32,179 nucleotides of DNA from Flammeovirgaceae bacterium BBD 1991-12 (GTDB lineage: Bacteria > Bacteroidota > Bacteroidia > Cytophagales > Cyclobacteriaceae), in contig LYSV01000068.1 of assembly GCA_001657315.1 (NCBI GenBank), forward strand, positions 1 through 32,179. The letters are read 5' to 3'. Position numbers and translations under genes: made by a program. Numbering within the stretch: position 1 is the first letter of the stretch; each line of letters begins with the position of its first letter. The notes beneath the pieces were generated by a model. That model saw only the letters and a program-made list of their open reading frames with translations. It searched no databases and was not told the origin of the DNA. Shown here piece by piece: positions 349-29,277 of the stretch.

Positions 349-1368
349 CTATTCCTGCACCCAGGTCAGCCCTGTTGCCGTTGCTTTATAATTACCTGTA
401 ACATCATCTATATTCTCCCCTAAATTAGCGTTAAGAGGGAAATAAAGTGCCAGGTCAGGATAGTTGGAGAAAGGTCCGGGCAAATAATCCTCCATATTAT
501 CACTAATCTCTTGCGCTGTTCTCTCCACATCCCAAAAACGAACGTCTGTTATAATTCCATTCGTGAACCTGCCATCTTTAAAAGCACTGTTGCCAATTCT
601 AAAAAAGCCTAACGCAGCATCAGGATTTATAGGCTGCGATACCCCTTCCGTCAAGAGCACTCCATCAACATAGATTTTCAAATTCTGATTGTTATACGTT
701 AACGCTAAACGCACCCACTGATCCAGGGGTAGAACATACGGAACTGCTGCAGTACTAACAACAGACCAATATACACCATCATTACCTGATCCTATCACAA
801 CCTGTAACGTTCCATGTGAAGAAGGAGCATTACTTGAAGTGAGGTATCGTAGCGTCCAACCAGATGTGTTAAATGTTCCGGGAGTTTGGTTTTCAGTCCC
901 TATCAGGTTAGCTACTCCTGAATTGGCATCATAGCTTTGTAGTTTAACTCGCAGTTCTACTGTAAATTCATCAGGAGAAAGTTCAGCATCCGGATTTGTG
1001 GTGATTACCTCGGAGGACAGGCCGGAAAACCTGGGGATGGCCTGCTCTACGAGACTAACCTCAAATTCATCCAGTGCAGATTGCAGTACAAGGCGTGCAC
1101 TTTCAATACGAATATCTTCCGTTGCGCGGTCCGCTATGCCCTGGGCAAGGTCGATGCCTTCTCTTAATTTCGCAATTGAACCTACGAAAAAATCTCCCGG
1201 CAACGTTCCTTCCGTAGAGTTATCAGCCAGCTCCCTTGCTGCCGTAACTTCCCTTTCCCACGTTGCGAGAAGTGTCGGGTCCAAATTAACATCTCCGGAA
1301 TCATCATCGCCACAAGAGGCGAAAATAAAAGACGAACATATGAATAATAGTAATGCTCTTGTTTTCAT
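349..1368 (-). CDS. LamG-domain surface lipoprotein
   Basis: This 339-residue protein has a lipoprotein signal peptide ending in FASC (Cys19), followed by an acidic GDDDSG stretch. That resembles the export signal that places Bacteroidota lipoproteins on the cell surface. Residues about 30-115 are helical and resemble FIVAR/DUF4972-type spacer segments. From about 120 to the end there is a concanavalin-A/LamG-like sandwich (FTVELRVKLQSYD, WVRLALTYNNQNLKIYVDG, ITDVRFWDVERTAQEI). It is the last gene of the locus, 189 bp after the lactonase, with a LacI-type operator in the gap and a terminator after its stop. By position it is probably a surface glycan-binding protein that helps the SusC/SusD pair, but a catalytic role cannot be excluded because LamG folds also occur in hydrolases. 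Confidence 0.85.
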   Translation of the reverse strand: MKTRALLLFICSSFIFASCGDDDSGDVNLDPTLLATWEREVTAARELADNSTEGTLPGDFFVGSIAKLREGIDLAQGIADRATEDIRIESARLVLQSALDEFEVSLVEQAIPRFSGLSSEVITTNPDAELSPDEFTVELRVKLQSYDANSGVANLIGTENQTPGTFNTSGWTLRYLTSSNAPSSHGTLQVVIGSGNDGVYWSVVSTAAVPYVLPLDQWVRLALTYNNQNLKIYVDGVLLTEGVSQPINPDAALGFFRIGNSAFKDGRFTNGIITDVRFWDVERTAQEISDNMEDYLPGPFSNYPDLALYFPLNANLGENIDDVTGNYKATATGLTWVQE

Positions 1369-1541: not shown

Positions 1542-1557
1542 ATTAAAACGGTTTAGT
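1542..1557. promoter_or_regulatory. LacI-type operator 3 (internal)
   Basis: ATTAAAACGGTTTAGT matches the ACTAAAnCGnTTTAGT core of the two operators upstream of the mannosidase gene at every fixed position but one. It abuts the lactonase stop codon, 173 bp upstream of the LamG lipoprotein start. This suggests a second promoter for that last gene under the same repressor. Binding is inferred from sequence only. Confidence 0.55.
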
Positions 1558-2628
1558 TTACCTTTCTTTTCCAAATAGCACACAACTTGGGGTTTTTACC
1601 TCATTATTCACATTAGCTTGTGACAGGTTCCCTGATTTTTGATCAATGCTGAATACCACCAGGTTGTCTGAGTCCTGATTCGCACATATTAACCAGTTTC
1701 CATCAGGGTCTATGTTCATATCACGTGGAGTTTTTCCTCCTGAAGGCACAAAACCGATCAAAGACATCTTTTCATGGTCTTCATCAAAACGAAAGATCGT
1801 GATCCCATCATATCCCCTGTTGGAAACGTAAATGAACCTGCCACCAGGGTGCATTCTTATGGCTGCACCGCTTGGAACTCCTTCAAAATCAGGAGGAAGG
1901 GTCAATATCGATTCCAATGGTCCAATTTTTTGGCCACCCTTTCTGAAGCTGTGGATCTTCGCATCCAATTCAGAGAAAACAAAAACGTAGTTTCCCGATG
2001 GGCTTGTGACCATATGTCTTGGGCCGGAACCCGAATTGATCTGAATACACTCGTCCGGTTGTTCCCTGATCCAATCATGTGTAAACCGGTAAGACTTCAC
2101 CATATCCGTTCCCAGGTCCACAGCGTAGAATTTACCAGCATCATGAGCAGAAACAAAATGAACATGGGGAGCCTCCTGGCGTATTTTATTTGGTCCGCTA
2201 CCTTTGTGAACCACATTATGGATATAAGGCTTAATACGGCCCTCACTGGTGACAGGGTAAACGAGTATATTACCAGACATGTACGCTCCCACAATCAAAT
2301 GGTCCCCTGATTTTGAAAGTGTCAAATGACAAGCAAACGACCCCGGTAATTCCTGCTCGTTAACAGGTTCCAGGTGCTGGCTATTGTTGGACTTATTTAC
2401 TCTGAAAGCATGTATTCCGGGCGATTTCTCAATGGGTTTTTCCTCCAGAGCAAACAAAAATCTGCCGTCATTGGACATCGCCAGATAACCGGGGTTGTTT
2501 GCCTTAACGCAATCAACGTAGTTAATGGCTCCATCCACCGGGTCAAAGTCCAATATGTATATTCCCTGTCCTTTTCCCACCAGTTCTTCGGTAAGTTTTT
2601 CAGTGTAACAGCCAATATATAATCTCAT
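1558..2628 (-). CDS. 6-phosphogluconolactonase-family beta-propeller lactonase
   Basis: This is a seven-bladed propeller of the YbhE/Pgl lactonase family (PF10282), which hydrolyses sugar lactones to aldonic acids. Typical blade signatures are visible: YIGCYTEK at the start, NPGYLAMSNDGRFLFALEE, GSGPRHMVTSPSGNYVFVFSELD, HPGGRFIYVSNRGYDGITIF, and GGKTPRDMNIDPDGNWLICANQDSD (read with its middle omitted: GGKTPRDMN then NWLICANQDSD). I chose the ATG at 2628, giving 356 residues as usual for the family. The frame extends to 2721, but the extra 31 residues match nothing and form no signal peptide. With either start the protein looks cytoplasmic. Located between SusD and the LamG lipoprotein, it may open mannono- or gluconolactone made by the SDR of the same operon. 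The true lactone is unknown. Confidence 0.88.
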   Translation of the reverse strand: MRLYIGCYTEKLTEELVGKGQGIYILDFDPVDGAINYVDCVKANNPGYLAMSNDGRFLFALEEKPIEKSPGIHAFRVNKSNNSQHLEPVNEQELPGSFACHLTLSKSGDHLIVGAYMSGNILVYPVTSEGRIKPYIHNVVHKGSGPNKIRQEAPHVHFVSAHDAGKFYAVDLGTDMVKSYRFTHDWIREQPDECIQINSGSGPRHMVTSPSGNYVFVFSELDAKIHSFRKGGQKIGPLESILTLPPDFEGVPSGAAIRMHPGGRFIYVSNRGYDGITIFRFDEDHEKMSLIGFVPSGGKTPRDMNIDPDGNWLICANQDSDNLVVFSIDQKSGNLSQANVNNEVKTPSCVLFGKER

Positions 2629-2748
2629 TGATCCGTACGGTTTAACTTTTCGATATAGAACAAGTTGATGCTTCTGCAACTGTGAAAGGTTATGGCACTG
2701 TTTCAACCGCACCATAACCAATGCTATTATACAATCACGTTATCATTC

Positions 2749-4227
2749 CTAATCCGCTAAATTAGGATTCAATAAAACTTCATTCGCGGGTATAGGGAAG
2801 TAGATATTTACTTCACTTAATGTACTTCCATTGGGCAACGTGGCGCCAACGAAACTGTCAAATCCGGTACCGTTAAAAACCTGCATGGTGCGTTTCATAT
2901 CAAACCAGATCAATCCCCCTTCAACCGGAAACTCCCAAACTCTTTGTCTCCATACCTCTTCCCTGAAGTCACCCTGAGAAAGTCCGGCTACAGGAGATAA
3001 TCCAGCTCGCGTTCGAATGCCATTCAAGGCATCGTAAGCTACCGTATTTGCCGATCCTGCTTCGTTTTGTGCTTCCGCATAAGTCAACAGAACATCTGCA
3101 TACCTTATTAAGGGAAAATTTTTGATCCCGTGGCCTTGCTCTTCTTCTCTAAATTCATCGTAAAAATATTTGTACACAGAAAGATTAAAACTGACACCGT
3201 CAAAAGAATCAAAGAAAAAACCCTGGTTTTCTCCCCTTCTGTCTGCGGGATCATAACTGTTATAGAAATCAACTTCAGGCTCCATACCACCAAAGTGTAT
3301 GAGCATATTGGTTATAGAGGTACCCCCTAAAGGAGTGAAATACTCGGAAAAGGAGCTTACCACGTTTTCTGAATATTGAACCATAAAAATATGCTCTTCC
3401 TGCAAATCAAATTCCGGTTCCCTTAGTTTAGTGATCCAACTCACGCCTCCGCCATCCTGGAACAACGAATAACTACCGGAATTGATCACGTCAAGCGCTT
3501 TTTCTGCCGCCAGCGCATACTTATCGGTCTGGTTCAACGGGCTACCCGCCATAGTCAGGTATACCTTAGCCAGCAAAGCTTTTGCCGCCCCCTGCGATAC
3601 CCGCCCCTCTGACCTTGAAGTCAGGGGAAGTCCTGCGCTCTCAGCGTTTTGCAGATCAGGAACAATTACCTGTTCGTAAATGTCCTGCACACTGGACTTT
3701 GGGAGCTTACCATCCTCTGAGGATTGGGTGGGAGTGACATTCATAGGGATATCTCCAAATATCTGGACTAACTGGAAATAGAAATAGGCACGAAGAAAAT
3801 GGGCTTCACCCAGTAACATTGCCGCTTTATCTTCTGTAAGATCCGGATCTGTAATCTGTGGTATACCGGCAATAGCAACATTAGCTGCCTCTATTCCAAA
3901 ATAATAGGTCCGCCAAAGAACATTCGCGTCACCATTGGTATCATCGAAATTCAACACATAAGCCTGCTCCTTTGCTGCATCCTGGGTATTGGGAGCAGGC
4001 TTCATTACACCTGTGGGAACCTCCAGTATACTGAATGGCATTGCGGCAAATCCAGATTTGCGATAGGGACCCCTCAAAAACTGATAGATCCCATCGACTG
4101 ACTTTTGTGCATCCAAAAGTGTTGTTCCTACAATACCCTTAAAAGACCGGGGGGTAACTTCCAGGTAATCCGAGCATGAAGTAATGATCAGAATACTTAT
4201 CATCACGAAAACTATATATTTTTTCAT
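2749..4227 (-). CDS. SusD/RagB-family nutrient-binding lipoprotein
   Basis: This is the outer-membrane surface lipoprotein that forms the lid of a SusC transporter and captures glycan. The signal peptide ends in IITSC with an acidic SDYLEVTP just after it, the usual SusD start. The helical TPR-like core includes EAHFLRAYFYFQLVQIFGDIP and ADVLLTYAEAQNEAG, and a RagB C-terminal part has RVWEFPVEGGLIWFDMKRT and FPIPANEVLLNPNL (motifs listed in pieces). The length of 492 residues is normal. An ATG two codons earlier (4233) is equally usable. It starts 11 bp after the SusC stop, so the two are cotranscribed. Binding specificity cannot be read from sequence; the mannosidase in the operon suggests a mannose-containing glycan. 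Confidence 0.95.
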   Translation of the reverse strand: MKKYIVFVMISILIITSCSDYLEVTPRSFKGIVGTTLLDAQKSVDGIYQFLRGPYRKSGFAAMPFSILEVPTGVMKPAPNTQDAAKEQAYVLNFDDTNGDANVLWRTYYFGIEAANVAIAGIPQITDPDLTEDKAAMLLGEAHFLRAYFYFQLVQIFGDIPMNVTPTQSSEDGKLPKSSVQDIYEQVIVPDLQNAESAGLPLTSRSEGRVSQGAAKALLAKVYLTMAGSPLNQTDKYALAAEKALDVINSGSYSLFQDGGGVSWITKLREPEFDLQEEHIFMVQYSENVVSSFSEYFTPLGGTSITNMLIHFGGMEPEVDFYNSYDPADRRGENQGFFFDSFDGVSFNLSVYKYFYDEFREEEQGHGIKNFPLIRYADVLLTYAEAQNEAGSANTVAYDALNGIRTRAGLSPVAGLSQGDFREEVWRQRVWEFPVEGGLIWFDMKRTMQVFNGTGFDSFVGATLPNGSTLSEVNIYFPIPANEVLLNPNLAD

Positions 4228-4238
4228 CGTCATTTCGT

Positions 4239-7200
4239 TTAAAAACTAGCTCTAATTCCAATATTGGTTATGAAAGATTTCGGATAAGCGCTCAGCTCGT
4301 ATCCTACCGTACCTGGAAATTCACCTATCGAACTTGCCTCAGGATCATACCCGTGATAATCCGTGATCAGGAACCAGTTTTGTAAGTTTACATAAACGCT
4401 GGCGGACCCCATACCGATCTTTCCAACTAAACCGGGATCGAAATCATAAGTGAGACTCAAATTTTGTCCCCTGAGAAAACTTCCGTCAAACACATGCCCG
4501 GAATCAATCCCCCTAAAGAACTTAACATCCTTCCTGATCCGTGGATACATTGTATTTTGATTGTCAGGGGTCCATGCCCGGTCAATAAACTCTTTGTAAA
4601 CATTGCCATACCCCATGCGATCAACGTTCAACAAAACAGAATAGTCAACGATCTCATTTCCGAAACTTCCCCTGATATCAAATGACAACGTGAAATTTTT
4701 ATAGGTAAAGCTACTACCGAAGTTCAGCGTAAAATCCGGCAATGGGTTACCAATGATCTTTGCGTCTTTCGAATCAATATCTCCGTCGTTATCCACATCC
4801 TCAAACCTGATATCACCGGGTTCTGCTCCGTAAACAGCCGCCTCGTCTTCTTCACCAATATTCCATGTCCCCAGCCGGCTATAGCCATGAAAAGATCCAA
4901 AGGTTTCTCCAACTCTAAAGACCTGATCCGGGAGAAGATCAGCCCACTGCATAGACCGGAACAGATCTGCATCGTCAGTACCCAGGGATAATATCTCGTT
5001 TGTATTCCTGGTGTAATTCGCATAAACGTTCCAGTTGAAGTCGCGCGTATTGATGACCTGTGCACTGAGCATTAACTCAATCCCCCTGTTGCGAATAGAC
5101 CCGGCATTACCAAGAAGAGAATTATAACCAGAGAAAACAGCTATTGGCACATTGAAAAGCAAATCGTCACTTTCCTTGTTATAATAATCCAACGACAGGT
5201 CTACATGGTTAAACAATCCAATGTCAAGACCTATATTAGTTTCGGTAGTAACCTCCCACTTGAGTCCGTTGTTACCGATGGCCAATGGAATCGTTCCATT
5301 AATTGCACTCTCACCAAAAACCGAGACAACGCCAACATCATCAAGTCGACCGAACCTGTCGAACGCCCCTATGCCTGAATTCCCGGTCTTACCCCAACTG
5401 GTTCTCAATTTCAAATTGCTTACTACGCCATTGTCTGCCAGGAAACTCTCATTACTGATATTCCAGGCTGCTGCCGCAGATGGGAAAAAGGCAAACTCAT
5501 TGTCCAGGCCGAACCGGGAAGAGCCGTCATATCTACCCGTAACCGTGAGCAAATACCGATCATCATAGGAGTAATTCGCTCTTCCGAAAAATGAGACCGC
5601 CTTACTTTCAGTAAAACTACTACTCGCACGATTTTGCTCCGGGTTACCATCTCCTAAATTATAGACGCCAAAAAAATCATCAAGCTCAAAGGACGCAGCA
5701 ACCGATGAAAAACTTTCTGTTTTATACAGGGAAGCTCCCCCCAGCACGTTAAGGCTTTGATTATTTCCAAACGCCAGGCTGTAATTAAGGGTATTCTCCC
5801 ATTGCAGATCGATCAACTCGGTATTCGAAACGGTGGCAGCAGAACGGTTAACGAAAGTGTCCAGCTCCTTTGGCTCGTGTGTTCTATTATCCCGTCTGAT
5901 GTCCTGTTGGGAGTAAGCCGTTCTGAACTTGAGGTTTTTCAAAATATCTACTTCTATAAAGAAGTTCCTCAGCACCTGGAGCGTATTGGTCTCCCGGGTG
6001 AACATATTCAACCGGTCTACCGGAGTCCTGCCATACCATACATCCAATTGACCATCCAGGCGTCTTAGATCATCAGCATTTACTATACTACCATCTTCGT
6101 AGCGTGTGGGATATATCGGTAAATAAAAAAGTGCTGCGTTTGCAAGTGCATCCGCACCTATCCGGTAGTCATCCAATATATTCGTCGTAGTTTCTGCGAA
6201 GGATATACCACCACCCACTTTTAGCCAGTCTTTTATATCATAATCCCCATTAAACCGCATAGTGGTTTTGTCCAGGAATGTATTGAGCATAATCCCCTCG
6301 TCTTCTTGCCTGCCAATTGAAAATGATGCCGTGTAGTTGTCACCGCCACCACGCACATTTGCAAAGTATTGATGGGATACACTTTTCCGGGTGGACTCCT
6401 CCAGCCAATCGGTATCGTGTACCGGGTCTCCGTACACCGGGTCATCGCCAGGGTTGAACAGGAATGGATGCATTGCTGCATAGTTATCAATAAACGCACT
6501 GGCAGGAACAGGACCATTAGTACGTGTTCTCAGATCTTCATCAATAGCAGGTTTTATTCTTGTCCAATACTCTTCTGAATTCAACATTTCAGGAGCATTG
6601 GTTAACTGACCTACTTGCAGGTTGTAATTCAAGTCTACTGTTACTCCTCCCTTTTTTCCTTTTTTGGTGGTGACGATCACAACACCATTAGCTGCCTGAA
6701 AACCATAAATAGCTGTGGCCGAAGCATCTTTTAAAACGGTAATATTCTCGATATCATTCGTATTGATCAGTTCAATGTCTGCGTTTAAAATGCCATCGAT
6801 AACGTACAATGGTTCATTACCACCATTAATTGAGCCACTACCCCTGATCCTGACCTGCATACCACCGCCTGGCCTACCTGAACTATTGGTAACAGCCACG
6901 CCAGGCATTTGCCCCTGGATATTGTCGAGGGGATTTACAGAGACCCTGCGCTCGATCTGCCTGGCATCCAATGTGGCCAAAGCACCGGTCACATCTTTCT
7001 TCTGCGTCTCACCGTAACCTATAACAATGATTTCCGCCAGCTGGGCTAAATCCGGCACCAGATCTACGTTAAGAACCGTTCGGCCATTAACGTTTATTTC
7101 CTCCCTTGCGTATCCAACATAGCTGAAGATCAAGATCCCGTCTTCGGGAACCTCAATCTTGTAATTACCATCAAAATCCGTTACTGTTCCACTGGTTGTT

Positions 7201-7400
7201 CCCTTGACAATTACACTGGCGCCTGGCAATGACTCGCCGTTTTCATCCAACACCTTGCCAGAGACCTGAATATTCTGTGATCTTTGCTGTCCGAACAAAT
7301 CACCTGCCACTAACATATTGATGAGTAATATCTGACAAATGATTCCATAAGAAGTCAACTTCATTAATTTTTTAATCCTATGTAAAACTTCATTTTTCAT
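4239..7400 (-). CDS. SusC/RagA-family TonB-dependent outer-membrane transporter
   Basis: This 1053-residue TonB-linked porin imports oligosaccharides across the outer membrane together with SusD. The order is: signal peptide to about residue 37 (ending near LFG-QQR), CarboxypepD_reg-like beta domain at 44-117 (GKVLDENGESLPGASVIVKG), the IVIGYG linker at 125-130, plug domain with the PLYVIDGI and ANGVVIVTTKKGKKG signatures, then the 22-strand barrel to a terminal ...IGIRASF aromatic end. I chose the ATG at 7400 because it gives a proper signal peptide. The frame runs open to 7508, but that extension crosses a hairpin and adds no recognisable sequence. The gene lies 158 bp after the dehydratase stop, the largest gap in the core of the locus, and no operator is seen there. 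Confidence 0.95.
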   Translation of the reverse strand: MKNEVLHRIKKLMKLTSYGIICQILLINMLVAGDLFGQQRSQNIQVSGKVLDENGESLPGASVIVKGTTSGTVTDFDGNYKIEVPEDGILIFSYVGYAREEINVNGRTVLNVDLVPDLAQLAEIIVIGYGETQKKDVTGALATLDARQIERRVSVNPLDNIQGQMPGVAVTNSSGRPGGGMQVRIRGSGSINGGNEPLYVIDGILNADIELINTNDIENITVLKDASATAIYGFQAANGVVIVTTKKGKKGGVTVDLNYNLQVGQLTNAPEMLNSEEYWTRIKPAIDEDLRTRTNGPVPASAFIDNYAAMHPFLFNPGDDPVYGDPVHDTDWLEESTRKSVSHQYFANVRGGGDNYTASFSIGRQEDEGIMLNTFLDKTTMRFNGDYDIKDWLKVGGGISFAETTTNILDDYRIGADALANAALFYLPIYPTRYEDGSIVNADDLRRLDGQLDVWYGRTPVDRLNMFTRETNTLQVLRNFFIEVDILKNLKFRTAYSQQDIRRDNRTHEPKELDTFVNRSAATVSNTELIDLQWENTLNYSLAFGNNQSLNVLGGASLYKTESFSSVAASFELDDFFGVYNLGDGNPEQNRASSSFTESKAVSFFGRANYSYDDRYLLTVTGRYDGSSRFGLDNEFAFFPSAAAAWNISNESFLADNGVVSNLKLRTSWGKTGNSGIGAFDRFGRLDDVGVVSVFGESAINGTIPLAIGNNGLKWEVTTETNIGLDIGLFNHVDLSLDYYNKESDDLLFNVPIAVFSGYNSLLGNAGSIRNRGIELMLSAQVINTRDFNWNVYANYTRNTNEILSLGTDDADLFRSMQWADLLPDQVFRVGETFGSFHGYSRLGTWNIGEEDEAAVYGAEPGDIRFEDVDNDGDIDSKDAKIIGNPLPDFTLNFGSSFTYKNFTLSFDIRGSFGNEIVDYSVLLNVDRMGYGNVYKEFIDRAWTPDNQNTMYPRIRKDVKFFRGIDSGHVFDGSFLRGQNLSLTYDFDPGLVGKIGMGSASVYVNLQNWFLITDYHGYDPEASSIGEFPGTVGYELSAYPKSFITNIGIRASF

Positions 7401-7491
7401 ATATTTGAAAGTTTTAATTAATAAGTAGTTAAAGTGGTCTGGTGTCATAAATTTTGCGAGGTTTTTGACACTCCAGACGCTTACATGAACG

Positions 7492-7517
7492 GTGCTACCT
7501 GGTAGCACTGTTTTTTT
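7492..7517 (+). terminator. palindromic hairpin plus T-tract in the susC leader
   Basis: GTGCTACC (7492-7499) and GGTAGCAC (7501-7508) form a perfect inverted repeat, followed on the plus strand by TGTTTTTTTT. This has the form of a rho-independent terminator pointing along the plus strand, opposite to the operon. Read on the minus strand, the hairpin has no T-tract after it and would be an mRNA hairpin about 90 nt before the SusC start, in the untranslated spacer after the dehydratase gene. It may end an antisense transcript or modulate SusC expression. No plus-strand promoter was confidently found. Confidence 0.45.
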
Positions 7518-7558
7518 TGGTCCTTTGATTACTTCATATCACTGGGTTTTATGTTTTT

Positions 7559-8629
7559 CTACTCAACTTGCCTGATCAAAGCTTTCATGTATCCCATGGC
7601 ATAGGCCATCCCGGCATGCCATGGTGCATCGCAACTCATTTGCGGTGTATGATCAGGAATGATCACGCCGTCAAATTCATTTTTCTTTAAGATCTTTAAG
7701 ATCTCCAGCATATCGATATCTCCTTCATCCACGAACACCTCCCTGTATTTCGGAACTTTGCCTACCACATTTCTAAAGTGTATGTAGGCGATTTTTTCCT
7801 GCCGGCTGTATTGGTCTGTGGCCTCATAAACATCACCTTCCGTCATTTCCGCGATAGATCCCAGGCAGAATTCCAGAGTGTTGGCCTTACTATCTTTTAT
7901 ATCCAAAAGCTTCTGATACAGATCCGGCTGAAAAACCAACCGTGGAGTCCTTCTTATATAAGGCAACGGGGGGTCATCCGGATGTGCAGCCAGTTTTACA
8001 CCAGCCTCTTCAGCAACTGGTAACAATTCCTTTAAGAAATACTCTACTCTGCTCCATAGCTCATTGTGATCGACCTCCGGTATCACTCCCTCAGGGGCAT
8101 TTTCATCATACACCATGTTCCAAACCATGCCGTTGGGGATGGGAGTGTCATCTCCTTCCTCCATAGCCACTGAAACTGCGCCACCCCGGGCAAATTCACC
8201 CGTGATCCTGGAACTGACACCAGCAAGTGAAAAGTTGTATCCAAAAACAGGAATACCAGCTTCTCCTACATTTCGGATGAGCTGCTTCAGGTTTTCTGTT
8301 TGTTCCTTCTTCCCTGGGCCGTCGAGCAAAACATCATGCCAATGTGCCGGGTCAAAGTTTTCAATGGCTTCCAATTCCAACCCATAGCTGTTGATCTCCG
8401 ATCTAATGGCCTTCAATTCCCCGGTTGACCATACAGGGGTACCGATACCCGCCCTACCCCAACCTTCCTTCTCTCCTACCGGCTGGTTAGTGTCGTCTTT
8501 CGAATTTTTTTCGTGCCCGAAATAGTCCACCATGTGTATCACCAAATGCGTAGCGCCACACTGTCTGGCAAATTTGTAGTGCTCTTCATTGAGCATGTGT
8601 TTGTATAGTCCGAAACCGAGCTTGATCAT
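7559..8629 (-). CDS. uxuA: mannonate dehydratase (UxuA family)
   Basis: The family dehydrates D-mannonate to 2-keto-3-deoxy-D-gluconate, using a divalent metal in a TIM barrel. The protein has 356 residues and aligns by eye with E. coli UxuA around AHPDDPPLP (residues 215-223), LEFCLGS (253-258 region), YIHFRN (282-287) and IPDHTPQM (324-331). The family's metal ligands correspond to His216, Cys255, His284 and Asp326, all present. It is shorter than the E. coli enzyme (about 394) and has its own insert around residues 40-60, so the exact aldonate could differ. There is no signal peptide, so it is cytoplasmic. It starts 9 bp after the SDR stop and is clearly cotranscribed with it. Confidence 0.88.
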   Translation of the reverse strand: MIKLGFGLYKHMLNEEHYKFARQCGATHLVIHMVDYFGHEKNSKDDTNQPVGEKEGWGRAGIGTPVWSTGELKAIRSEINSYGLELEAIENFDPAHWHDVLLDGPGKKEQTENLKQLIRNVGEAGIPVFGYNFSLAGVSSRITGEFARGGAVSVAMEEGDDTPIPNGMVWNMVYDENAPEGVIPEVDHNELWSRVEYFLKELLPVAEEAGVKLAAHPDDPPLPYIRRTPRLVFQPDLYQKLLDIKDSKANTLEFCLGSIAEMTEGDVYEATDQYSRQEKIAYIHFRNVVGKVPKYREVFVDEGDIDMLEILKILKKNEFDGVIIPDHTPQMSCDAPWHAGMAYAMGYMKALIRQVE

Positions 8630-8638
8630 CTTATACCA

Positions 8639-9493
8639 TTATTTTCCAGGTTGTAATTCATTTTGATCAGATCCCAGACTCCCGGGCTGACCATTACTGT
8701 TCCTTCTGGGAGGTCTCGGGTCATATTGGATGGTATTGTTCATATAACCACCATCAATGTACAGGTCTGCGCCATGTATATAAGAGGAAAGACTGCTTGC
8801 TAAAAACACGACGGCATTAGCTACGTCTTCAACTTCCCCGATGTTTCCGGATGGGATCCACTTTTCGAACTTCTCCACTCCGAATTTCATGATCTCCTCG
8901 CGGTTCATTTCTGTATAAATGGCCCCCGGAGCTATTGAAACCACCCTGATGTTTTTATCAACCAGCTCCAGTGAGAGGCATTTTGTCATCATTTTCAACC
9001 CTGCCTTGGACACGCAGTAATGTACCAGCCCCTTCCTGGGAACCACATCATGGATAGATGAAATATTAATGATCACCCCACCTCCGCTGGTTTCCATTCT
9101 CCGGCCCGCCTGTTGTGCACATAGCCATGGTCCCTTAAGGTTTACGTCCATGATCATGTCCCATTCCTTTTCCGTCATCTCCAATACATGAGTGACTGTT
9201 TCAACTCCCGCATTATTCACCAGAATATCAATACCCGACATCTTATTATCCAGAAAAGCGAACATGTCCTCAATATCCGAACCACTGGCAACGTTTGCAT
9301 AACAGGTCCAGGCATTCACCCCAAATTCTGATGTAATCCGCGACGCCAGTAATTCCGCTTTTTCCTTATTTCGATAGTAATTGATCACTACATCAGCGCC
9401 ACAAGCCGCCAGTTTTCTACATATACCAGCGCCTATGCCCTGGCTGCCACCAGTGACCAATGCCTTTTTCCCCTTAAGATCTATTGTATTCAC
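8639..9493 (-). CDS. SDR-family oxidoreductase (glucose 1-dehydrogenase-like)
   Basis: This is a classical short-chain dehydrogenase of 284 residues. It has the cofactor loop TGGSQGIG (14-21), NNAG (93-96), Asn118, Ser145/146, and the catalytic pair Tyr159 and Lys163 (YCVSK). The C-terminal VFLASSLSSYIHGADLYIDGG is typical of the sugar-dehydrogenase/FabG-like group. The tail after about residue 255 is Pro/Arg/Asn-rich and longer than usual. SDRs near UxuA commonly interconvert sugars, aldonates or keto-aldonates with NAD(P). In this operon, oxidation of free mannose at C1 to mannonolactone would link the mannosidase to the lactonase, but a fructuronate/mannonate reductase role is also possible. 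The start is 11 bp after the RraA-like stop. Confidence 0.85.
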   Translation of the reverse strand: MNTIDLKGKKALVTGGSQGIGAGICRKLAACGADVVINYYRNKEKAELLASRITSEFGVNAWTCYANVASGSDIEDMFAFLDNKMSGIDILVNNAGVETVTHVLEMTEKEWDMIMDVNLKGPWLCAQQAGRRMETSGGGVIINISSIHDVVPRKGLVHYCVSKAGLKMMTKCLSLELVDKNIRVVSIAPGAIYTEMNREEIMKFGVEKFEKWIPSGNIGEVEDVANAVVFLASSLSSYIHGADLYIDGGYMNNTIQYDPRPPRRNSNGQPGSLGSDQNELQPGK

Positions 9494-9504
9494 TATTCCT
9501 GAGA

Positions 9505-10197
9505 TTACATAATTCCAAATTTGTCAAAGGCATCCACTGTACTCATTCCTTCCCGGAGTGCCTTTTGTACCAGTTTTTCTCCGCGGGCTTTCTCTATGGC
9601 CCCTGCAAAAGCGTCATTTTCTACTTCCTGCGGAACGACAAGCACACCGTCCCTGTCTCCATAGATAATATCTCCGGGATTGACCCGAATATTGTCAAAC
9701 TCAATGGAAACGTTATAATCGATCACCTTACCCCGTGGTCCCTGGTCCTGAGCATATCCGCCAAATGAGAAGGTAGGAAAGTTGAGGTTAAGGATCTCAC
9801 TGGTATCCCTGGAATACCCATTTAATACTGCCCCGGCCGCTCCAAGCCTGATGGCTCGTGTGCTCATGAGCCCTCCCCACAACGCATATCGTGGTGAAGC
9901 TCCCGAGCAGATATAGACCTCATTTTCCCTGAGGCTATCCAGTGCTTCAAACATGATCCCAAAAGGCTTTTTCATAACGGGGTTGTGAGTATTTTGCACC
10001 TCTTCTTCGAATACATCGGCCTCCAGGACAGGCATTGCACGACCGATGGTTATAAAATCATCACGAAGTGGCTTGACCTGTGGCGCCAGAAATTGATGTT
10101 GAAACCCCAGTTTATCCAAAACATCTCCCACCAAAGCAACAAAAAGTTCCTTTTTAGCTATGTCAAACAGCTCACTATCGTTTTTCCAAATTCCCAT
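9505..10197 (-). CDS. RraA-like / HMG-aldolase-family protein
   Basis: This 230-residue member of the RraA-like family (formerly annotated as dimethylmenaquinone methyltransferase) carries the hallmark metal and substrate motif at 108-131. The motif begins GGLMSTRAIRLGAAG and ends NGYSRD, with Arg130 and Asp131 in the positions of the 4-hydroxy-4-methyl-2-oxoglutarate aldolase active site. GDRDGVLVVP follows at 180-189. Active family members are divalent-metal aldolases releasing pyruvate, while others (RraA itself) only bind RNase E. Clustering with a sugar-acid dehydratase and a sugar transporter favours the aldolase role, for example on 2-keto-3-deoxygluconate. Its start overlaps the end of the cupin gene by 23 bp, which implies translational coupling. 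Confidence 0.85.
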   Translation of the reverse strand: MGIWKNDSELFDIAKKELFVALVGDVLDKLGFQHQFLAPQVKPLRDDFITIGRAMPVLEADVFEEEVQNTHNPVMKKPFGIMFEALDSLRENEVYICSGASPRYALWGGLMSTRAIRLGAAGAVLNGYSRDTSEILNLNFPTFSFGGYAQDQGPRGKVIDYNVSIEFDNIRVNPGDIIYGDRDGVLVVPQEVENDAFAGAIEKARGEKLVQKALREGMSTVDAFDKFGIM

Positions 10198-10633
10198 TTA
10201 CACGCTCACTTAGGTTTGCTGTATTAAGTACATTCAACACTTTCTCTCTCATGTCCAGACACGCATGGTCGTCCAGGTCAAAGAATTCAAAATCGGAGAG
10301 ATGTGTTTCCGACTTCTCCACAATGATCACTTCGCTACCGGGTGTCATCGCTATGTTGTGCCATACACCTTTTGGTACGTTATACACAATTTCCGGCAAC
10401 ATTAATTCTGCGTAAAATATAGGTTTATCGCCCTCAAGCTCGGCAGTAATCAACGCCACCTTTCCCTTCTGCAACCAAAAAGCCTCATCGGTATGTCTGT
10501 GTACATCAACTTTTCTGATATTCATAATATCCTGTTCTGTCATATAATTGAGCTGAGCTACCTGCCAGCCCTCACGTATCAAAACAGGATGATAGCCCTG
10601 GTCTTTATTGCTGTATTTTTCTATTGAATTCAT
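10175..10633 (-). CDS. small cupin-domain protein
   Basis: This is a 152-residue single-domain cupin. Motif 1 is VHRHTDEAFWLQKGK, with His45, His47 and Glu50. Motif 2 is PKGVWHNI, with His92 as the remaining metal ligand. No signal peptide is seen, so it is cytoplasmic. Cupins of this size in sugar-acid operons include isomerases, epimerases and tautomerases, but the sequence does not identify the reaction. It lies 7 bp after the transporter stop and overlaps the next gene by 23 bp, so it is a fixed member of the operon. It could handle anomer or keto-enol conversion of a pathway intermediate; this is inference. Confidence 0.8.
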   Translation of the reverse strand: MNSIEKYSNKDQGYHPVLIREGWQVAQLNYMTEQDIMNIRKVDVHRHTDEAFWLQKGKVALITAELEGDKPIFYAELMLPEIVYNVPKGVWHNIAMTPGSEVIIVEKSETHLSDFEFFDLDDHACLDMREKVLNVLNTANLSERVNGNLEKR

Positions 10634-10640
10634 GGAGATA

Positions 10641-12035
10641 TTAACTTTCTTTAGCCCACATTTTTTCTATTTCTTCCAGTGTCTTGTTCTTTGTCTCCGG
10701 TACCACCTTCCATACAAAATATAAACCCGGGATCATGACAGCGGCATAGACCCAGAAGGTAGGCCCTACACCCAGCCAGCCGCGGAGCATAGGAAAAGTC
10801 TGCGTAACGAGAGTGGATCCGACAAAAAGACAAAACGTACCTATGGCCATGGCTCTCCCCCGGACTTTGGTAGGATAGATCTCTGCCAAAAGGACCCAAA
10901 CGCCCGGGCCAATAGTGGCTGCAAAAACCATAATATAAAATAAAAACGACGCAACTATGGTTACTCCGGCCTGCTCTACTCTCTGACTTCCGGAAAACTG
11001 AAAACCGATGAGAAAGAGTGCTATACTCAAGCCGAAAAAGCCGGCCATTAAAATAGGTTTTCTACCAAAATGATCTATTTTCCAGATGGCTACAACCGTG
11101 AATATCATGTTGACAAATCCAATCAGGGCGGCTGTTCCAAAAGCCGAATCTGACTGAAAACCTGCCAGTTCGAAAATTGTGGGGGCATAGTACATTACTG
11201 TCGTAATCCCTGTAAGCTGGCTTATGAGGGGTAATGCCAGTCCTATGACCAGGGCAACCCTGAGTTGTTTGCCAAACAGTTGTTTAAAACTGCCTGATTC
11301 ATGGCTGATAGTATCCGCGATCTCCTCCATTTCATCCCTCGCCATCGTTTCACCATGTATTCTTGTCAGGATCGCCAGCGCCTCTTCAGGCTGGTCTTCT
11401 TTTGTTAACCATCTGGGGCTCTTCGGAACAAAAAACAACAACAGGAAAAACAGGGTAGCCGGTAATATTTCAGAACCAAACATGGCACGCCAGACTTCTT
11501 CAACAAATACATAGTTTAAAAAGCCGCTGGTTACTTCACTGCTGCTGGCATTGCTGAGCAAGAAGGTATTGGAGAGATATGAACACAATATGCCAAGGGT
11601 AATGGCAAACTGATAGAGAGATACCAGCCTGCCCCGTAGATTGGCCGGGGCCAGCTCGGAGATATACAGAGGGGCTACCATAGCCGCGATCCCTACTCCC
11701 ACACCTCCAATAAGCCTGGCCATCACTAAAAATCCAGGAGACTCAGGTATGGTGGAAGCCACAGCGGATACCAAGAAGAGCAAAGCAGAGAACATCAGGA
11801 TAAGCCTTCGCCCGTATTTGTCACTCAAATACCCTGAAATGGCGGCTCCAATAACACTACCCAATAGCGCAGAGCTCATGATCCAGCCTTCCATAACATC
11901 ATTGAGTGAGAATTTTTCTCGCAGAAAACCAATGGTACCGGAAGCCACGGCGGTGTCAAACCCAAACAAAAAGCCTCCCAGCCCCGCAGTGATCGAGATT
12001 AGAAATAAGTACTTAGTGTTCTGGTCTGAATTCAT
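10641..12035 (-). CDS. sugar-porter-family MFS transporter
   Basis: This 464-residue, 12-helix inner-membrane symporter is of the sugar porter (XylE/GLUT/AraE) family. The family signatures are present: GGFLFGFDTAVASG in helix 1, DKYGRRLIL in loop 2-3, ISELAPANLRGRLVSLYQ, VPKSPRWL after helix 6, QLTGITTVMYYAPTIF in helix 7, DHFGRKPIL in loop 8-9, and PETKNKTLEEIE at the C-terminus. It most likely imports the monosaccharide released in the periplasm by the upstream GH38 enzyme using a proton gradient. Mannose would fit, but specificity is not readable. It starts 18 bp after the mannosidase stop. Confidence 0.93.
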   Translation of the reverse strand: MNSDQNTKYLFLISITAGLGGFLFGFDTAVASGTIGFLREKFSLNDVMEGWIMSSALLGSVIGAAISGYLSDKYGRRLILMFSALLFLVSAVASTIPESPGFLVMARLIGGVGVGIAAMVAPLYISELAPANLRGRLVSLYQFAITLGILCSYLSNTFLLSNASSSEVTSGFLNYVFVEEVWRAMFGSEILPATLFFLLLFFVPKSPRWLTKEDQPEEALAILTRIHGETMARDEMEEIADTISHESGSFKQLFGKQLRVALVIGLALPLISQLTGITTVMYYAPTIFELAGFQSDSAFGTAALIGFVNMIFTVVAIWKIDHFGRKPILMAGFFGLSIALFLIGFQFSGSQRVEQAGVTIVASFLFYIMVFAATIGPGVWVLLAEIYPTKVRGRAMAIGTFCLFVGSTLVTQTFPMLRGWLGVGPTFWVYAAVMIPGLYFVWKVVPETKNKTLEEIEKMWAKES

Positions 12036-12053
12036 GCTTCAGGTTTAGTACAA

Positions 12054-14909
12054 TCAAAAACCAATTTTGAATGTCTCAATGGCGTTTTGGCCCATGGAAA
12101 CACTCAGGGTTTTGCCACCATTCGGATCAATCTCTTTATAACTCTCCTCTACCAGATTGGTTTTTCCCCATTTTTTAAAAGTCCACTGAAAATCAACGTC
12201 ATACCGGCTGTCTGTACCACTCATTTCCGTGAGCCGTAAGATCACATCATGGTCATAGTCACTCTTCTTGAAGGTACTCACAAACGCAAAGGGGGAACTC
12301 ACCTTTATAAAGCTGTTCCTGGCTCCAAGTTTGCCCGAAGTATTGCTGTCGGGAAGTTTTACCACCCATGGTTCATGCTGGAATTCCCTGGCAAATACGT
12401 AGCCATTTTCCCAGCCGCTTTTATGTGAAGTCAATGAAAAATGGAAGGTGTGACGCCCCTCCTGTGTGTAGTAGGGTCCCATACCATGGCAGCTTTTGTG
12501 CGTGGAGAGCATAATTCCCTGTAATACCGGATGATACCGGGCATCACGTTTCGGGTCGACCCAGTCCATTACGGCTACTGTACCGGAGACCGTGATGCCA
12601 AACTCAGGTCCATTCAGTGACATAAAATCCAACACTTCCCTAGGATGGATGTACCTTGGCATTTGGCGATACGTACCTTCCCATGACCACCCTCCTGGCT
12701 CCATATCCAGATCGTCTTTACCTACGGTCACCACCCCTGCGGGAGATTCGTAGTTCACCTCTACTTCCATAGCATTCATGGGGAGGGCAAATCTCCATTG
12801 ACGTTCCTTACGCCCGTCCCATTCCGGAATGTCGTACTCAAAATCAATTCTTTTCATGTTGTTGAAAATGGTAATGCGCTGGATAACCGGCATTCCGTTA
12901 AGTTTATAGTCACATTCAAACGAGGTGAAGACCGGTCCGCTACTTTTTACTGTCCAACTACTGTTTTTTAAGCTTAGCTTATCCAAATTGTGCTCAGTGG
13001 GCTTTTTCATCTGGTTGAATTCTCCGGCTCCATGGCCATCGTAATGCATGGAAATGACATCGCCCCCGGCATACCGTGAAGTATTAAGAATATCCTGATC
13101 CAGCTCCTTGTCATACAAAGAGGTTATGCCGCCATTTCCGAGGGTTACCCTGTAATAGTCATTCTCGTAAAAATTAATGGCAGATCTTGCTTCGGTATTG
13201 TTCTTTTGCGCTGTTTCTGATAAATAGAGTACATTATACCCGACGGAAGAAATGTCTTCAGCGGCCACTATTAACCGGGTTCCCTTGTCATCGGTCACTT
13301 TTTGACTTGGAATGGTTTTTCCCATGTCGTTTTTAACCGAATAAGCTTTGCCTGCCGAAGGCAGAGAAATAGATATGGCCGCATTCCGGTTCCACGTGAG
13401 GTCATTGAAAACGGCATACCCGTTCGGTTGGGTCGTTTTGATATGTTTCGTTATGTCTTTGAGCGCTCCCTGCAGGATATCGATACCTTCCTCGTCAGCC
13501 TGGCTCAGTTTGGCAAGAAAGGTACTATCTGTGATCCCACCGTTAAGGCCTCCCCAGCCATGATCCGGATAAATAGCCTTAAACCAGGCCTGCTCAAAAT
13601 TGTCACCCGGATAATTATTGAAATCACCATTGATCATGGCCGAAATGGTGGAGAACATCTCCGCGGCCGGCAAGCTAACGGCCGCTTGTTTCTTTGCCCT
13701 GATTGCCTGATAATGACCGGGGCCGTGAATGTACATCCAGATGTTGGCCCTTTCACCATATATCTCATCAAATTCAGCTTCAGGTACGTTCACAAAACTC
13801 AGAAACTCATCGGCTGTTGAATGACGTAACCGGGGCAGTTTAATGCCGGACATACTCACAATATTGTTCCATTCCTTTATCACTTCCCTGTAGTAGATCG
13901 GGCCTGAGGCATCCTGACTGATCATAACTGCATAATGTGGAGGGATGTTTCTTTTCTCATAGTAATCATGCCAATCTTTCAGGTTGGCATGGAGTGCCTT
14001 CATACCGTAAGGGGCTTCCTTCTCGAAGTATTTGTAAAAGATCACAGGCCAGCCGTAGTTGCCTGGACTATAGGTAAAAATACGGGAACCATCCGGGCTT
14101 TTCCAATGGTAAAAGCCCTCTTTGAACCTACTGATCACCAAGTTTTTAACCCCTCCCTTATTCAAGATCTGCGGGAATTGAAAACTACGACCCGGAACGT
14201 CCACGTTGAAGGCGGTCCGGGCATCCATACCAGGTATATTGTCCCTGATCCACTTCCTTCCAAGGTAAAGCTGACGTATCAGTTGCTCCCCGCTTTCTAT
14301 TCCTTCGTAGGGTTGATTAAAGGTGGCTCCCCATTCAAATTGCCCTTTTTGGTAAGCGTTTAATACCACCGGTTTCTTTTCCGGGTATTCATCCAACAAC
14401 TCCATCAGGTTCAAGGTCTGCTCCATCTCGAAGCGATATTCATCGTAGAGATCCATGGTGTCCAGCGCCGGAAGGATAATGTCATGGATCCTTTCCTCCC
14501 TACAATACTCAGGTGTATTCATCCACGCAATATCCTGATGGGACGAAACAATAATGTGTATGGTACCTTCCTTAAAATATTTCCAATCGTCCGGCACAAG
14601 TGGAGTATAGGCCTTCACCAGGTCGGACTTCCCTTTTCGTTTTATGATCAACTTCGATGTACTTCCAATTAAAGGTAGCTGCAGTTCAACAGTATCTTTG
14701 GCAATTGACTTATATGGAACTTTCACCCCATCTCTGAACACAATTAGTCCTTTAATTCCACCTTTGAGATACATTCTGGAGCTAACCACAATATCTTCTC
14801 CCTGCTTTTGATAGCTTAAAGGGGTCGTGTAATGGATACTACCCTCCTGGGCCCATAGCTTCAGCAAACCTGAAACAAACGCCAATAGTATAAGAATGGG
14901 TCTTCTCAT
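12054..14909 (-). CDS. secreted GH38 alpha-mannosidase-like glycoside hydrolase
   Basis: This 951-residue protein has a Sec signal peptide (about 1-20, ending KLWAQ), so it is probably periplasmic. The GH38 catalytic domain begins near residue 115. VSSHQDIAWM gives the zinc ligands His124 and Asp126 of the family's H-x-D-x-x-W motif, and FNVDVPGRSFQFPQIL places Asp237 at the nucleophile position. A mid-helical domain and a large C-terminal beta-sandwich follow, as in other GH38 enzymes. An extra beta domain of about 90 residues precedes the catalytic domain. GH38 enzymes retain configuration and cleave alpha-mannosides. It is the first gene after the two LacI operators and therefore the likely head of the operon. 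Substrate linkage cannot be predicted. Confidence 0.88.
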   Translation of the reverse strand: MRRPILILLAFVSGLLKLWAQEGSIHYTTPLSYQKQGEDIVVSSRMYLKGGIKGLIVFRDGVKVPYKSIAKDTVELQLPLIGSTSKLIIKRKGKSDLVKAYTPLVPDDWKYFKEGTIHIIVSSHQDIAWMNTPEYCREERIHDIILPALDTMDLYDEYRFEMEQTLNLMELLDEYPEKKPVVLNAYQKGQFEWGATFNQPYEGIESGEQLIRQLYLGRKWIRDNIPGMDARTAFNVDVPGRSFQFPQILNKGGVKNLVISRFKEGFYHWKSPDGSRIFTYSPGNYGWPVIFYKYFEKEAPYGMKALHANLKDWHDYYEKRNIPPHYAVMISQDASGPIYYREVIKEWNNIVSMSGIKLPRLRHSTADEFLSFVNVPEAEFDEIYGERANIWMYIHGPGHYQAIRAKKQAAVSLPAAEMFSTISAMINGDFNNYPGDNFEQAWFKAIYPDHGWGGLNGGITDSTFLAKLSQADEEGIDILQGALKDITKHIKTTQPNGYAVFNDLTWNRNAAISISLPSAGKAYSVKNDMGKTIPSQKVTDDKGTRLIVAAEDISSVGYNVLYLSETAQKNNTEARSAINFYENDYYRVTLGNGGITSLYDKELDQDILNTSRYAGGDVISMHYDGHGAGEFNQMKKPTEHNLDKLSLKNSSWTVKSSGPVFTSFECDYKLNGMPVIQRITIFNNMKRIDFEYDIPEWDGRKERQWRFALPMNAMEVEVNYESPAGVVTVGKDDLDMEPGGWSWEGTYRQMPRYIHPREVLDFMSLNGPEFGITVSGTVAVMDWVDPKRDARYHPVLQGIMLSTHKSCHGMGPYYTQEGRHTFHFSLTSHKSGWENGYVFAREFQHEPWVVKLPDSNTSGKLGARNSFIKVSSPFAFVSTFKKSDYDHDVILRLTEMSGTDSRYDVDFQWTFKKWGKTNLVEESYKEIDPNGGKTLSVSMGQNAIETFKIGF

Positions 14910-15242: not shown

Positions 15243-15258
15243 ACTAAATCGGTTTAGT
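15243..15258. promoter_or_regulatory. LacI-type operator 1
   Basis: ACTAAATCGGTTTAGT is a near-perfect 16-bp palindrome with the central CG typical of LacI/GalR-family operators. Its centre is 56 bp from that of operator 2. It lies about 334 bp upstream of the mannosidase start and 116 bp beyond the LacI stop codon. Confidence 0.75.
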
Positions 15259-15298: not shown

Positions 15299-15314
15299 AC
15301 TAAAACGATTTAGT
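15299..15314. promoter_or_regulatory. LacI-type operator 2
   Basis: ACTAAAACGATTTAGT is the second copy of the palindrome ACTAAAnCGnTTTAGT. It lies 60 bp after the stop codon of the LacI-family gene. Two such sites 56 bp apart could be bridged by a repressor or mark repression plus autoregulation. Confidence 0.75.
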
Positions 15315-15374: not shown

Positions 15375-16379
15375 TCAGGTGTTGCGTATTTCCATGCTGG
15401 GTTCTACCACCTCCTGTGACTTCAACAGGCTATTCGGCTTGTTCTGAATCTGCTTCATGAGCATATCGATGGCATTTTCGGCAATTTGTTCTACAGGTTG
15501 TACCAAAGCCGTTACTTCTGGCCGGAAAATGGAAAACACCTCGTGATCGCCGAAACTCACGATCGATATAGTGTCAGGATAGTCAACTCCCATTTCCCTG
15601 ATCCTGGCAATGCCGTACAAGGCAAGATAATGCGTTTCAAATACAATACCATCAACACCATGGTCGGAGATCAGCTCTTCGACAGCCTTGTGACAGTCCA
15701 GTTTAGCGTTTTGATGGTCAACAATCTTTAGGTTTTGACTGTCTCTTTTACTTTCCTCAATTGCATTTCGAAAACCTCTTTGCCTGTCTTTTATGGCTGT
15801 CAGGTCAAGGTTCAGCCCTACATAGCCTATATTTTTTCTGCCTGTTTCTATCAAATGTTTAACCAGTTTTTTAGCGCCATTGTAGTTATCCACAACAACA
15901 TAAGGCAGGTCTTCTCCGGGGTAGTGACGATCAAACAGCACAATCGGAAGTCCTGCATTGGAAATGGCTTTTATATCTTCAAGGTTATGTTGAGTGGATG
16001 CGATCAGGATCCCATCTACCTGCTGTGCTTCAAAGGTCAACAAAAGTTCCTTTTCCTTAACCGGATCTTCATGAGTGGTTCCAAGTAAAACCTGATATCC
16101 CAATTTCAAGGATATCTGCTCTATTGATTCAGCAATAAGACCGTAGTACGTATCGGTTATACGTGGGACAATCAACGCCAGCGTCATACTACTGCCGGTG
16201 GATAGATTTCTGGCTATCATGTTCGGCCTGAAATTGAGCCTTTTGGCCACACTAAGGATGAGCGCCTGCGTATCTGGATTGATCTTGTGCAGATCTCCCT
16301 TCCCATTAAGTACCATTGATACGGTGGTTTTGGAAAGTTTAACCTCCTTGGCTATCATATCAAGTGATACTCTTTTCAT
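15375..16379 (-). CDS. LacI/GalR-family transcriptional regulator
   Basis: This 334-residue repressor has an N-terminal LacI helix-turn-helix (residues 1-25, MIAKEVKLSKTTVSMVLNGK) with the hinge helix near 50-60 (RPNMIARNLSTG). A periplasmic-binding-protein-like effector domain begins at LALIVPRITDTYYG and includes VDGILIAST, LPIVLFDRHYPG, YVVVDNYNGAKKLVKHLI and a terminal TALVQPVEQIAENAIDML. LacI proteins usually bind a sugar or sugar phosphate and release an operator with a central CG. Two matching palindromes lie just downstream, before the mannosidase, and a third lies before the last gene. It is therefore the probable local repressor. Control by LacI rather than by a hybrid two-component or SusR-type sensor is a minority arrangement for SusC/SusD loci. 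Confidence 0.93.
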   Translation of the reverse strand: MKRVSLDMIAKEVKLSKTTVSMVLNGKGDLHKINPDTQALILSVAKRLNFRPNMIARNLSTGSSMTLALIVPRITDTYYGLIAESIEQISLKLGYQVLLGTTHEDPVKEKELLLTFEAQQVDGILIASTQHNLEDIKAISNAGLPIVLFDRHYPGEDLPYVVVDNYNGAKKLVKHLIETGRKNIGYVGLNLDLTAIKDRQRGFRNAIEESKRDSQNLKIVDHQNAKLDCHKAVEELISDHGVDGIVFETHYLALYGIARIREMGVDYPDTISIVSFGDHEVFSIFRPEVTALVQPVEQIAENAIDMLMKQIQNKPNSLLKSQEVVEPSMEIRNT

Positions 16380-26140: not shown

Positions 26141-26145
26141 GGCTC

Positions 26146-29250: not shown

Positions 29251-29277
29251 CATAGGATTATAGATTGATTGGAACAT

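Follow-up and report, generated by a model that had tools for sequence, protein, structure and literature searches.

An operon of a Flammeovirgaceae bacterium predicted to be LacI-controlled and to oxidise mannose without phosphorylation

For marine Bacteroidota, glycans rich in mannose are an important source of carbon, and the catabolism of mannose is usually pictured as running via ManA. An operon of Flammeovirgaceae bacterium BBD 1991-12 (assembly GCA_001657315.1; 8.59 Mb in 282 contigs) raises the question of whether mannose set free from mannosides is oxidised there without phosphorylation. The operon lies on contig LYSV01000068.1, of which positions 1 to 32,179, a stretch of 32,179 nucleotides called the window below, were analysed. 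On balance we favour a reading in which the whole operon would serve mannoside utilisation under LacI control and its cytoplasmic arm would oxidise mannose without phosphorylation; our confidence in it as a whole is a little better than even. Its front half, from mannose to 2-keto-3-deoxygluconate (KDG), is considered likely, and for the last step, the cleavage of KDG to pyruvate and glyceraldehyde by an RraA-fold protein, the chances are about even. Substrates and reactions are predicted throughout from the sequence.

The operon consists of nine genes, all on the minus strand and running from position 14909 to 1558, which encode in this order a GH38-type hydrolase, a sugar porter, a cupin-fold protein, an RraA-like protein, an SDR, a short UxuA-type protein, SusC, SusD and a propeller lactonase (Table 1). 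According to the open reading frame (ORF) coordinates, the gaps from GH38 to lactonase are 18, 7, -23 (an overlap), 11, 9, 50, 5 and 27 bp. The operon is flanked upstream by a LacI gene and downstream by a gene for a LamG-domain lipoprotein. Every protein of the operon except the cupin scored above its Pfam family cut-off. A preliminary description of this DNA had listed these families as one minus-strand series with tiny gaps and intact key residues, and the ORFs, the Pfam matches, R130/D131 of the RraA-like protein, the Tyr/Lys pair of the SDR, the UxuA ligands and the signal sequence of the GH38 protein bear this out. The operon combines a SusC/SusD pair with a glycoside hydrolase and can be classed as a polysaccharide utilisation locus; it also combines candidates for a dehydrogenase, a mannonate dehydratase and a KDG aldolase and has no sugar kinase among its genes, which is the composition of a non-phosphorylative pathway.

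In the route that we propose, mannosides would be taken up by SusC/SusD, and mannose would be released in the periplasm by the GH38 hydrolase and imported by the sugar porter. The SDR would oxidise mannose at C1 to mannonolactone, the propeller lactonase would open this to mannonate, and the short UxuA-type protein would dehydrate mannonate to KDG, which the RraA-fold protein would split as a metal-dependent pyruvate-type aldolase. Part of the KDG may go to KdgK and Eda instead. The GH38 protein has 7 PDB matches, each of them an alpha-mannosidase or a fusion of one, and shows the motifs HQDIAW (124), DVPG (237) and DHG (449) behind an N-terminal Sec-type signal sequence recognised by eye. The SDR has S146, Y159 and K163 and passes the model NF005559 (PRK07231, "glucose 1-dehydrogenase") with 223.3 against 215, a broad subfamily that the SDR of a UxaC locus (L069) and a second SDR of the regulon described below pass too. 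For the UxuA-type protein, PF03786 gave 177.5 bits against a gathering value of 23.7. Its residues H216, C255, H284, D326 and H327, which we take from the work on S. suis ManD to be metal ligands (H, C, H, D) and the catalytic H, are identical in 80 of 80 aligned rows, the window included.

When GTDB was scanned with the UxuA-type protein, 446 relatives were found, of which the best 80 were kept; among these the nearest named relatives by UxuA are Agaribacillus aureus (90%) and Fulvivirga sp. M361 (89%). Searched by tblastn at 1e-5, the 80 loci contained the SDR in 65 cases, RraA in 60, the sugar porter in 52, GH38 in 50, the cupin in 48, the lactonase in 43, LacI in 17, SusC in 14 and SusD in 13. 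Twelve of the 80 were dropped and the 68 whose sequence reaches 5 kb or more upstream of UxuA were used for further counts, in stretches of up to 21 kb; presence was taken from ORF clustering, with any position in the stretch accepted. The co-occurrence check suggested in the preliminary description is positive: RraA is present in 57 of the 68 loci, the porter in 50, the cupin in 45, the lactonase in 39 and an SDR in 59 (any SDR of the cluster, UxaC-type included), while alpha-mannosidase-type genes (three GH38 groups, GH92 or a GH76-like group, by Pfam on representatives) are found in 51. All but three of the 39 loci with a lactonase also have them. Fisher tests that ignore kinship gave p values for association with the alpha-mannosidase-type genes of 2.2e-10 for the porter, 2.5e-9 for the cupin, 2.1e-5 for RraA and 1.8e-4 for the lactonase. 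SusC/SusD, which had been counted as part of the set, fall outside this conserved core, and at 50% identity or more they occur only in L007, L028 and L033.

The LacI homologue cluster comprises 17 loci (16 of the 80 and the window), and a palindrome, ACTAAANCGNTTTAGT, is common to the regions around the LacI genes, with 15 of the 17 loci having this operator (exceptions L008 and L072). Allowing at most 1 mismatch, there are 42 sites in 22 of 81 loci (the 80 and the window, 1.43 Mb) and none for the reversed pattern. The gene next to the site is LacI in 12 cases, GH38 in 9, a CoA-transferase in 8 and others in 13. With up to 2 mismatches allowed, 3 matches were found in the window, where 0.08 would be expected. 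In the own genome, six places match with no more than 1 mismatch, five of them exactly: two before the window operon, one between the lactonase and LamG lipoprotein genes, and three on contigs C199 and C237. The genes around the latter are GH3, GH38, a module of solute-binding protein (SBP)-like protein, enoyl-CoA hydratase and CoA-transferase, a major facilitator superfamily (MFS) protein, GH130, a glucosamine isomerase/PIG-L protein, and a series of GH38b, SDR, CoA-transferase and GH92. Since the operator recurs beside these genes, the operon is assigned to a mannoside regulon, which LacI and the shared operator are predicted to define and which in the own genome would reach GH38, GH92, GH130, GH3 and CoA-transferase genes. 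C199 and C237 each end in a partial GH38 gene and are probably genome neighbours.

CoA-transferase genes occur in 26 of the 68 loci, and the operator precedes one at 8 sites. The nearest solved structure to the regulon's CoA-transferases is succinate-hydroxymethylglutarate CoA-transferase, and the nearest models are glutarate- and formyl-CoA-transferase, all below cut-off. The combination of an SBP-like protein, in which no signal sequence was recognised by eye, with enoyl-CoA hydratase and CoA-transferase III is seen inside or beside mannoside loci at L120:3310-6425 and L121:8141-12776 (own genome C237), and also in L038, L047, L055 and others. A gene of the M81/MlrC-type metallopeptidase family recurs near these clusters as well (L062, L065, L121:1353-2921).

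The RraA-like protein matches PF03737 and has the RraA fold. R130 and D131 lie within an intact G-X20-R-D-X2-E motif (residues 109-134), and the form G-X20-R-D-X2-E/D, a wording that reportedly goes back to Mazurkewich 2014, is found in 53 of 60 RraA rows; six of the other seven have E at the G position and one (L080) has Q at the end. The X20 motif of the window family opens with G, unlike that of an aromatic-pathway comparison enzyme, whose substrates differ and which is 23% identical in a structural alignment; in the aldolase motif this position is D. The protein stays below the NCBIfam aldolase equivalogs (NF006731, 55.0 against 179; TIGR02798, 49.9 against 304.5). Two motifs exist in RraA-like aldolases (PMC5065237; for this and all other papers cited, statements refer to the parts of the text at hand).

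Close homologues of the RraA protein are rare, with 5 of 395, 3 of 390 and 3 of 395 genomes, the own genome counted each time. Among ten such loci (window, C35, C238, G134, G119, G171, G182, G683, G630, G1047), seven carry, close to RraA, an intact gene from a family that contains dehydratases (UxuA in 2, MR_MLE in 5). In G171 the only trace of such a gene is an MR_MLE-like N-terminal piece joined to a RidA domain, the G119 locus is broken off by a contig end, and C35 has GH88 and MFS genes with no dehydratase-family gene. Because close homologues also adjoin other sugar-acid dehydratase families, the role as an aldolase for KDG or another 2-keto-3-deoxy acid gains indirect support. Contig C238 of the own genome (L099), L103 and L111 carry RraA together with a galactonate-dehydratase-like MR_MLE protein, an SMP-30-type lactonase and an SDR, and this cluster seems to follow the same plan for the oxidation of galactose or some similar sugar.

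The alternative that survives best shares the route to KDG and then has KDG phosphorylated by KdgK and 2-keto-3-deoxy-6-phosphogluconate (KDPG) cleaved by Eda, both encoded elsewhere, with a by-product or a different 2-keto-3-deoxy acid as the substrate of the RraA protein. On contig C157 (L088:8421-18075) the own genome has a canonical uronate operon, which by likeness to classified relatives holds a UxuB-like SDR, UxuA, UxaC, two KdgK-type kinases, KDPG aldolase and TRAP-type transporter genes. KdgK and Eda also stand near UxuA, beside RraA, in six of the 68 loci (L013, L037, L038, L041, L044, L047), and the same exit was proposed for haloarchaeal mannan users (PMC10963439). However, KdgK/Eda were not seen in the other 62 loci, whereas RraA is in 57; no operator site was found on C157 at up to 1 mismatch; and six loci with UxaC and an Nramp-like transporter have RraA in four cases and KdgK/Eda in none of the stretches covered. 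We regard this exit as unlikely, though it deserves more weight than the other two alternatives.

The same six UxaC loci bear on the substrate of the UxuA-type protein. Theirs is of the same type as that of the window (69-74% identical), and the UxuA tree places them together with five mannosidase rows in a group of 12 rows (support 92); the lactonase and the window-type sugar porter were not found in them. In the SDR tree, a quick tree with some long branches, the window SDR falls in a 50-row group (support 90) with 47 rows from mannosidase loci, and the SDRs of UxaC loci form a separate group of 11 rows (support 99), loosely joined (85) to the UxuB-like SDR of the own genome; one mannosidase-locus SDR, L052, stands outside its group on a very long branch. 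As the UxuA type is common to UxaC loci, whose SDR belongs to another clade and which have no lactonase, mannonate would be the shared compound and the window SDR an aldose dehydrogenase. The simplest reading is that this UxuA type sees one compound, mannonate, reached from glucuronate via one SDR and from mannose via another. A glucuronate (glucuronomannan) pathway, with the SDR as a fructuronate reductase making mannonate and UxaC acting in trans, could point to the same UxuA and SDR families, which serve that route too, and to the UxaC loci themselves. It is nevertheless improbable and was set aside on account of the SDR grouping, the lactonase and the fact that UxaC and mannosidase genes almost exclude each other (7 of 8 UxaC loci have no alpha-mannosidase-type gene); it has no place for a lactonase or a sugar porter, and the own genome has its separate uronate operon without the operator. 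A second short UxuA of the own genome (C41:13397-14377; L087:9398-10447), 64% identical, lies between two large ORFs, with no RraA or window-type SDR seen within 19 kb.

FlDet, a flavobacterial RraA-family enzyme, resembles the proposed aldolase in acting on a 2-keto-3-deoxy sugar acid, and a dehydratase/decarboxylase of its kind, giving alpha-ketoglutaric semialdehyde (alpha-KGSA) from a further oxidised 2-keto-3-deoxy acid, is a marginally weaker candidate still: FlDet uses 2-keto-3-deoxy-D-glucarate (PMC8563752), and in G1047 an aldehyde dehydrogenase distantly like alpha-KGSA dehydrogenase (133 bits against 770) precedes RraA, but the window operon has no evident C6-oxidising enzyme, and the most FlDet-like protein found (L131, with the published KLKTVSTPT stretch), which stood in for FlDet in the comparison, is 27% identical to the window RraA, against 63-80% likeness among FlDet relatives (PMC8563752). 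L131 came from a wider PF03737 scan at 1e-15 with 57 matches in 36 of 296 genomes; 7 of these were already covered by the loci above, 40 regions with 43 further matches were taken and 7 matches were left out (G003, G155, G103:C1:2556590, G249:C1:343741, G119:C210, G203:C22, G227:C4). The 43 served solely to find FlDet-like proteins and count neither for nor against any reading. By eye most of them belong to other subfamilies; many are RraA-domain proteins some 310 aa long, with N-termini that look like signal sequences, and stand in other neighbourhoods of several sampled Bacteroidota genomes (L136-L161, many).

Several points weigh against the non-phosphorylative route from mannose through KDG to pyruvate. 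The one RraA-family enzyme found assayed on KDG, FlDet, is a dehydratase/decarboxylase and inactive on it (PMC8563752). An RraA aldolase is not needed, given the KdgK and KDPG aldolase of the genome and the KdgK/Eda of six loci. MR_MLE also holds racemases and cycloisomerases, and the MR_MLE protein of G1047 matched a cycloisomerase model only, far below cut-off. Among the recurrent families identified, which leave out single genes and small clusters, no obvious glyceraldehyde-using enzyme was seen. The Fisher tests take no account of kinship among loci, and among the independent-pair tests listed for the UxuA tree (1-6 pairs each) none was significant, the pairs being too few. The reversed operator gave 3 places in the own genome, compared with 6, at up to 1 mismatch. 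The preliminary description called the dehydratase UxuA; its metal ligands are intact, but this short form is divergent and scores under the two NCBIfam cut-offs for mannonate dehydratase (PRK03906, 146.2 against 191; TIGR00695, 118.3 against 199.55), and it is therefore named UxuA-type here, not a UxuA equivalog. In 78 of 80 rows, Ile replaces the Arg of canonical UxuA before the PDH motif. Since it diverges in both respects, its substrate could differ from mannonate. The claim of a pathway with no kinase holds for the operon only: kinases are present elsewhere in the genome and in the six loci mentioned, and besides KdgK and KDPG aldolase the genome has two ManA-type matches (PF20511, above cut-off) and five ROK matches. 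The idea of an organism without ManA was rejected, as PF01238, which gave no match, also missed Bacteroides ihuae; with the PF20511 matches, oxidation is not forced by an absent isomerase. GH130, whose Pfam name is phosphorylase, includes phosphorylases yielding mannose 1-phosphate, and together with the ManA-type and ROK genes its presence in the regulon allows phosphorylated routes. The line-up of steps put forward earlier has context for hydrolysis, import, C1 oxidation, lactone opening and mannonate to KDG, but it does not explain the GH130, CoA-transferase, enoyl-CoA hydratase and SBP-like genes of the regulon.

When compared with known systems, the route is familiar in outline. The KDG aldolase Ta1157 of Thermoplasma acidophilum presumably belongs to a family other than RraA. 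With the enzymes AldT, ManD and KDGA of that archaeon, an oxidative non-phosphorylative route was built in vitro, its role in vivo only being suggested (PMC6901390). It likewise runs from mannose over mannonolactone, mannonate and KDG to pyruvate and glyceraldehyde, and the dehydrogenase and dehydratase genes are said to adjoin; it differs in being archaeal, in the spontaneous opening of the lactone and in using Ta1157, and the text at hand describes no mannosidase operon or LacI regulon (PMC6901390). In Natronoglomus mannanivorans, mannonate dehydratase genes stand in mannanase clusters, oxidation of mannose was proposed and an RraA-family gene is named in a cluster figure legend, but the organism is an archaeon on beta-mannan, KDG is proposed to pass through KdgK and KDPG aldolase, and RraA is given no role there (PMC10963439). 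In Paenibacillus sp. B2 and Agrobacterium sp. B1, uxuA adjoins or lies near an RraA-family gene, which was read as degradation of a lignin fragment (DDVA) (PMC12673573); the present data suggest another reading of these neighbours. Mannonate dehydratase in polysaccharide utilisation loci is mentioned in PMC11036162 and PMC9122927, in the parts at hand without an oxidation scheme, and non-phosphorylative sugar routes of SAR202 in PMC10444878, likewise without RraA. Searches of the open-licence PubMed Central (PMC) literature turned up no paper on an RraA KDG aldolase, nor one on this operon of Bacteroidota and its LacI regulon. As far as these searches show, the operon with its regulon and the proposal of an RraA aldolase are apparently new.

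Table 1. Coordinates of the operon, its predicted control elements and adjoining genes in the window.
Feature	Position	Strand	Basis
LacI-family regulator, predicted operon repressor	15375..16379	-	ORF; homologue cluster
Predicted LacI operator ACTAAAACGATTTAGT	15299..15314		exact match to ACTAAANCGNTTTAGT; kept in relatives
Predicted LacI operator ACTAAATCGGTTTAGT	15243..15258		same basis as operator at 15299
GH38-type hydrolase (alpha-mannosidase family), Sec-type signal sequence	12054..14909	-	PF01074 3.1e-27, PF07748, PF17677
Sugar porter (MFS; XylE/GlcP-like), predicted monosaccharide import	10641..12035	-	PF00083 1.5e-114; TIGR00879 372.9 vs 237.8
Cupin-fold protein	10175..10633	-	AlphaFold2 (AF2) model
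RraA-fold protein, predicted metal-dependent KDG (2-keto-3-deoxy acid) aldolase	9505..10197	-	PF03737, RraA fold
SDR, predicted aldose (mannose) 1-dehydrogenase	8639..9493	-	NF005559 223.3 vs 215
Short UxuA-type protein, predicted mannonate dehydratase	7559..8629	-	PF03786 4.2e-52
SusC-type TonB-dependent receptor	4239..7508	-	TIGR04056 822.3 vs 368.25
SusD-type lipoprotein	2749..4233	-	PF14322, PF07980
7-bladed propeller lactonase, predicted mannonolactonase	1558..2721	-	PF10282 2.8e-92
Near-operator ATTAAAACGGTTTAGT, 1 mismatch	1542..1557		pattern scan
LamG-domain lipoprotein, possible surface glycan binder, same regulon	349..1368	-	PF13385 1.4e-21

From Table 1, the starts of SusC (listed as GTG) and of the lactonase (listed as TTG) probably lie further in, as judged by eye; that of the lactonase is probably codon 32, which the start of the L083 relative matches and which would leave the protein without a signal sequence. 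Pfam and NCBIfam searches gave no match for the cupin. Its AF2 model is a beta barrel (pLDDT 91.4), with 3d0j (function unknown) as the nearest solved structure and cupin-type dioxygenases next, and the structure search pointed to no function. A homologue of the LamG lipoprotein follows the lactonase in L007 only (a 2-locus cluster). At 24431-29277 on the minus strand the window has a second SusC/SusD-like pair (by eye), with no operator match nearby.

Going beyond this operon, we tentatively suggest, at somewhat less than even chances, that this RraA type is a new family of aldolases for KDG or 2-keto-3-deoxy-aldonates, which would replace KdgK and KDPG aldolase in the kinase-free oxidation of several sugars of Bacteroidota (mannose, uronates, probably galactose) behind a dehydratase of UxuA, MR_MLE or altronate/galactarate type, and that a so far unrecognised CoA-thioester step of mannoside catabolism, with CoA-transferase III, enoyl-CoA hydratase and the signal-less SBP-like protein, forms part of the LacI regulon. 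If the proposed route is true, a widely shared LacI regulon would send mannose through oxidation, and the RraA fold, usually labelled a regulator of RNase E, would be an unrecognised sugar-acid aldolase.

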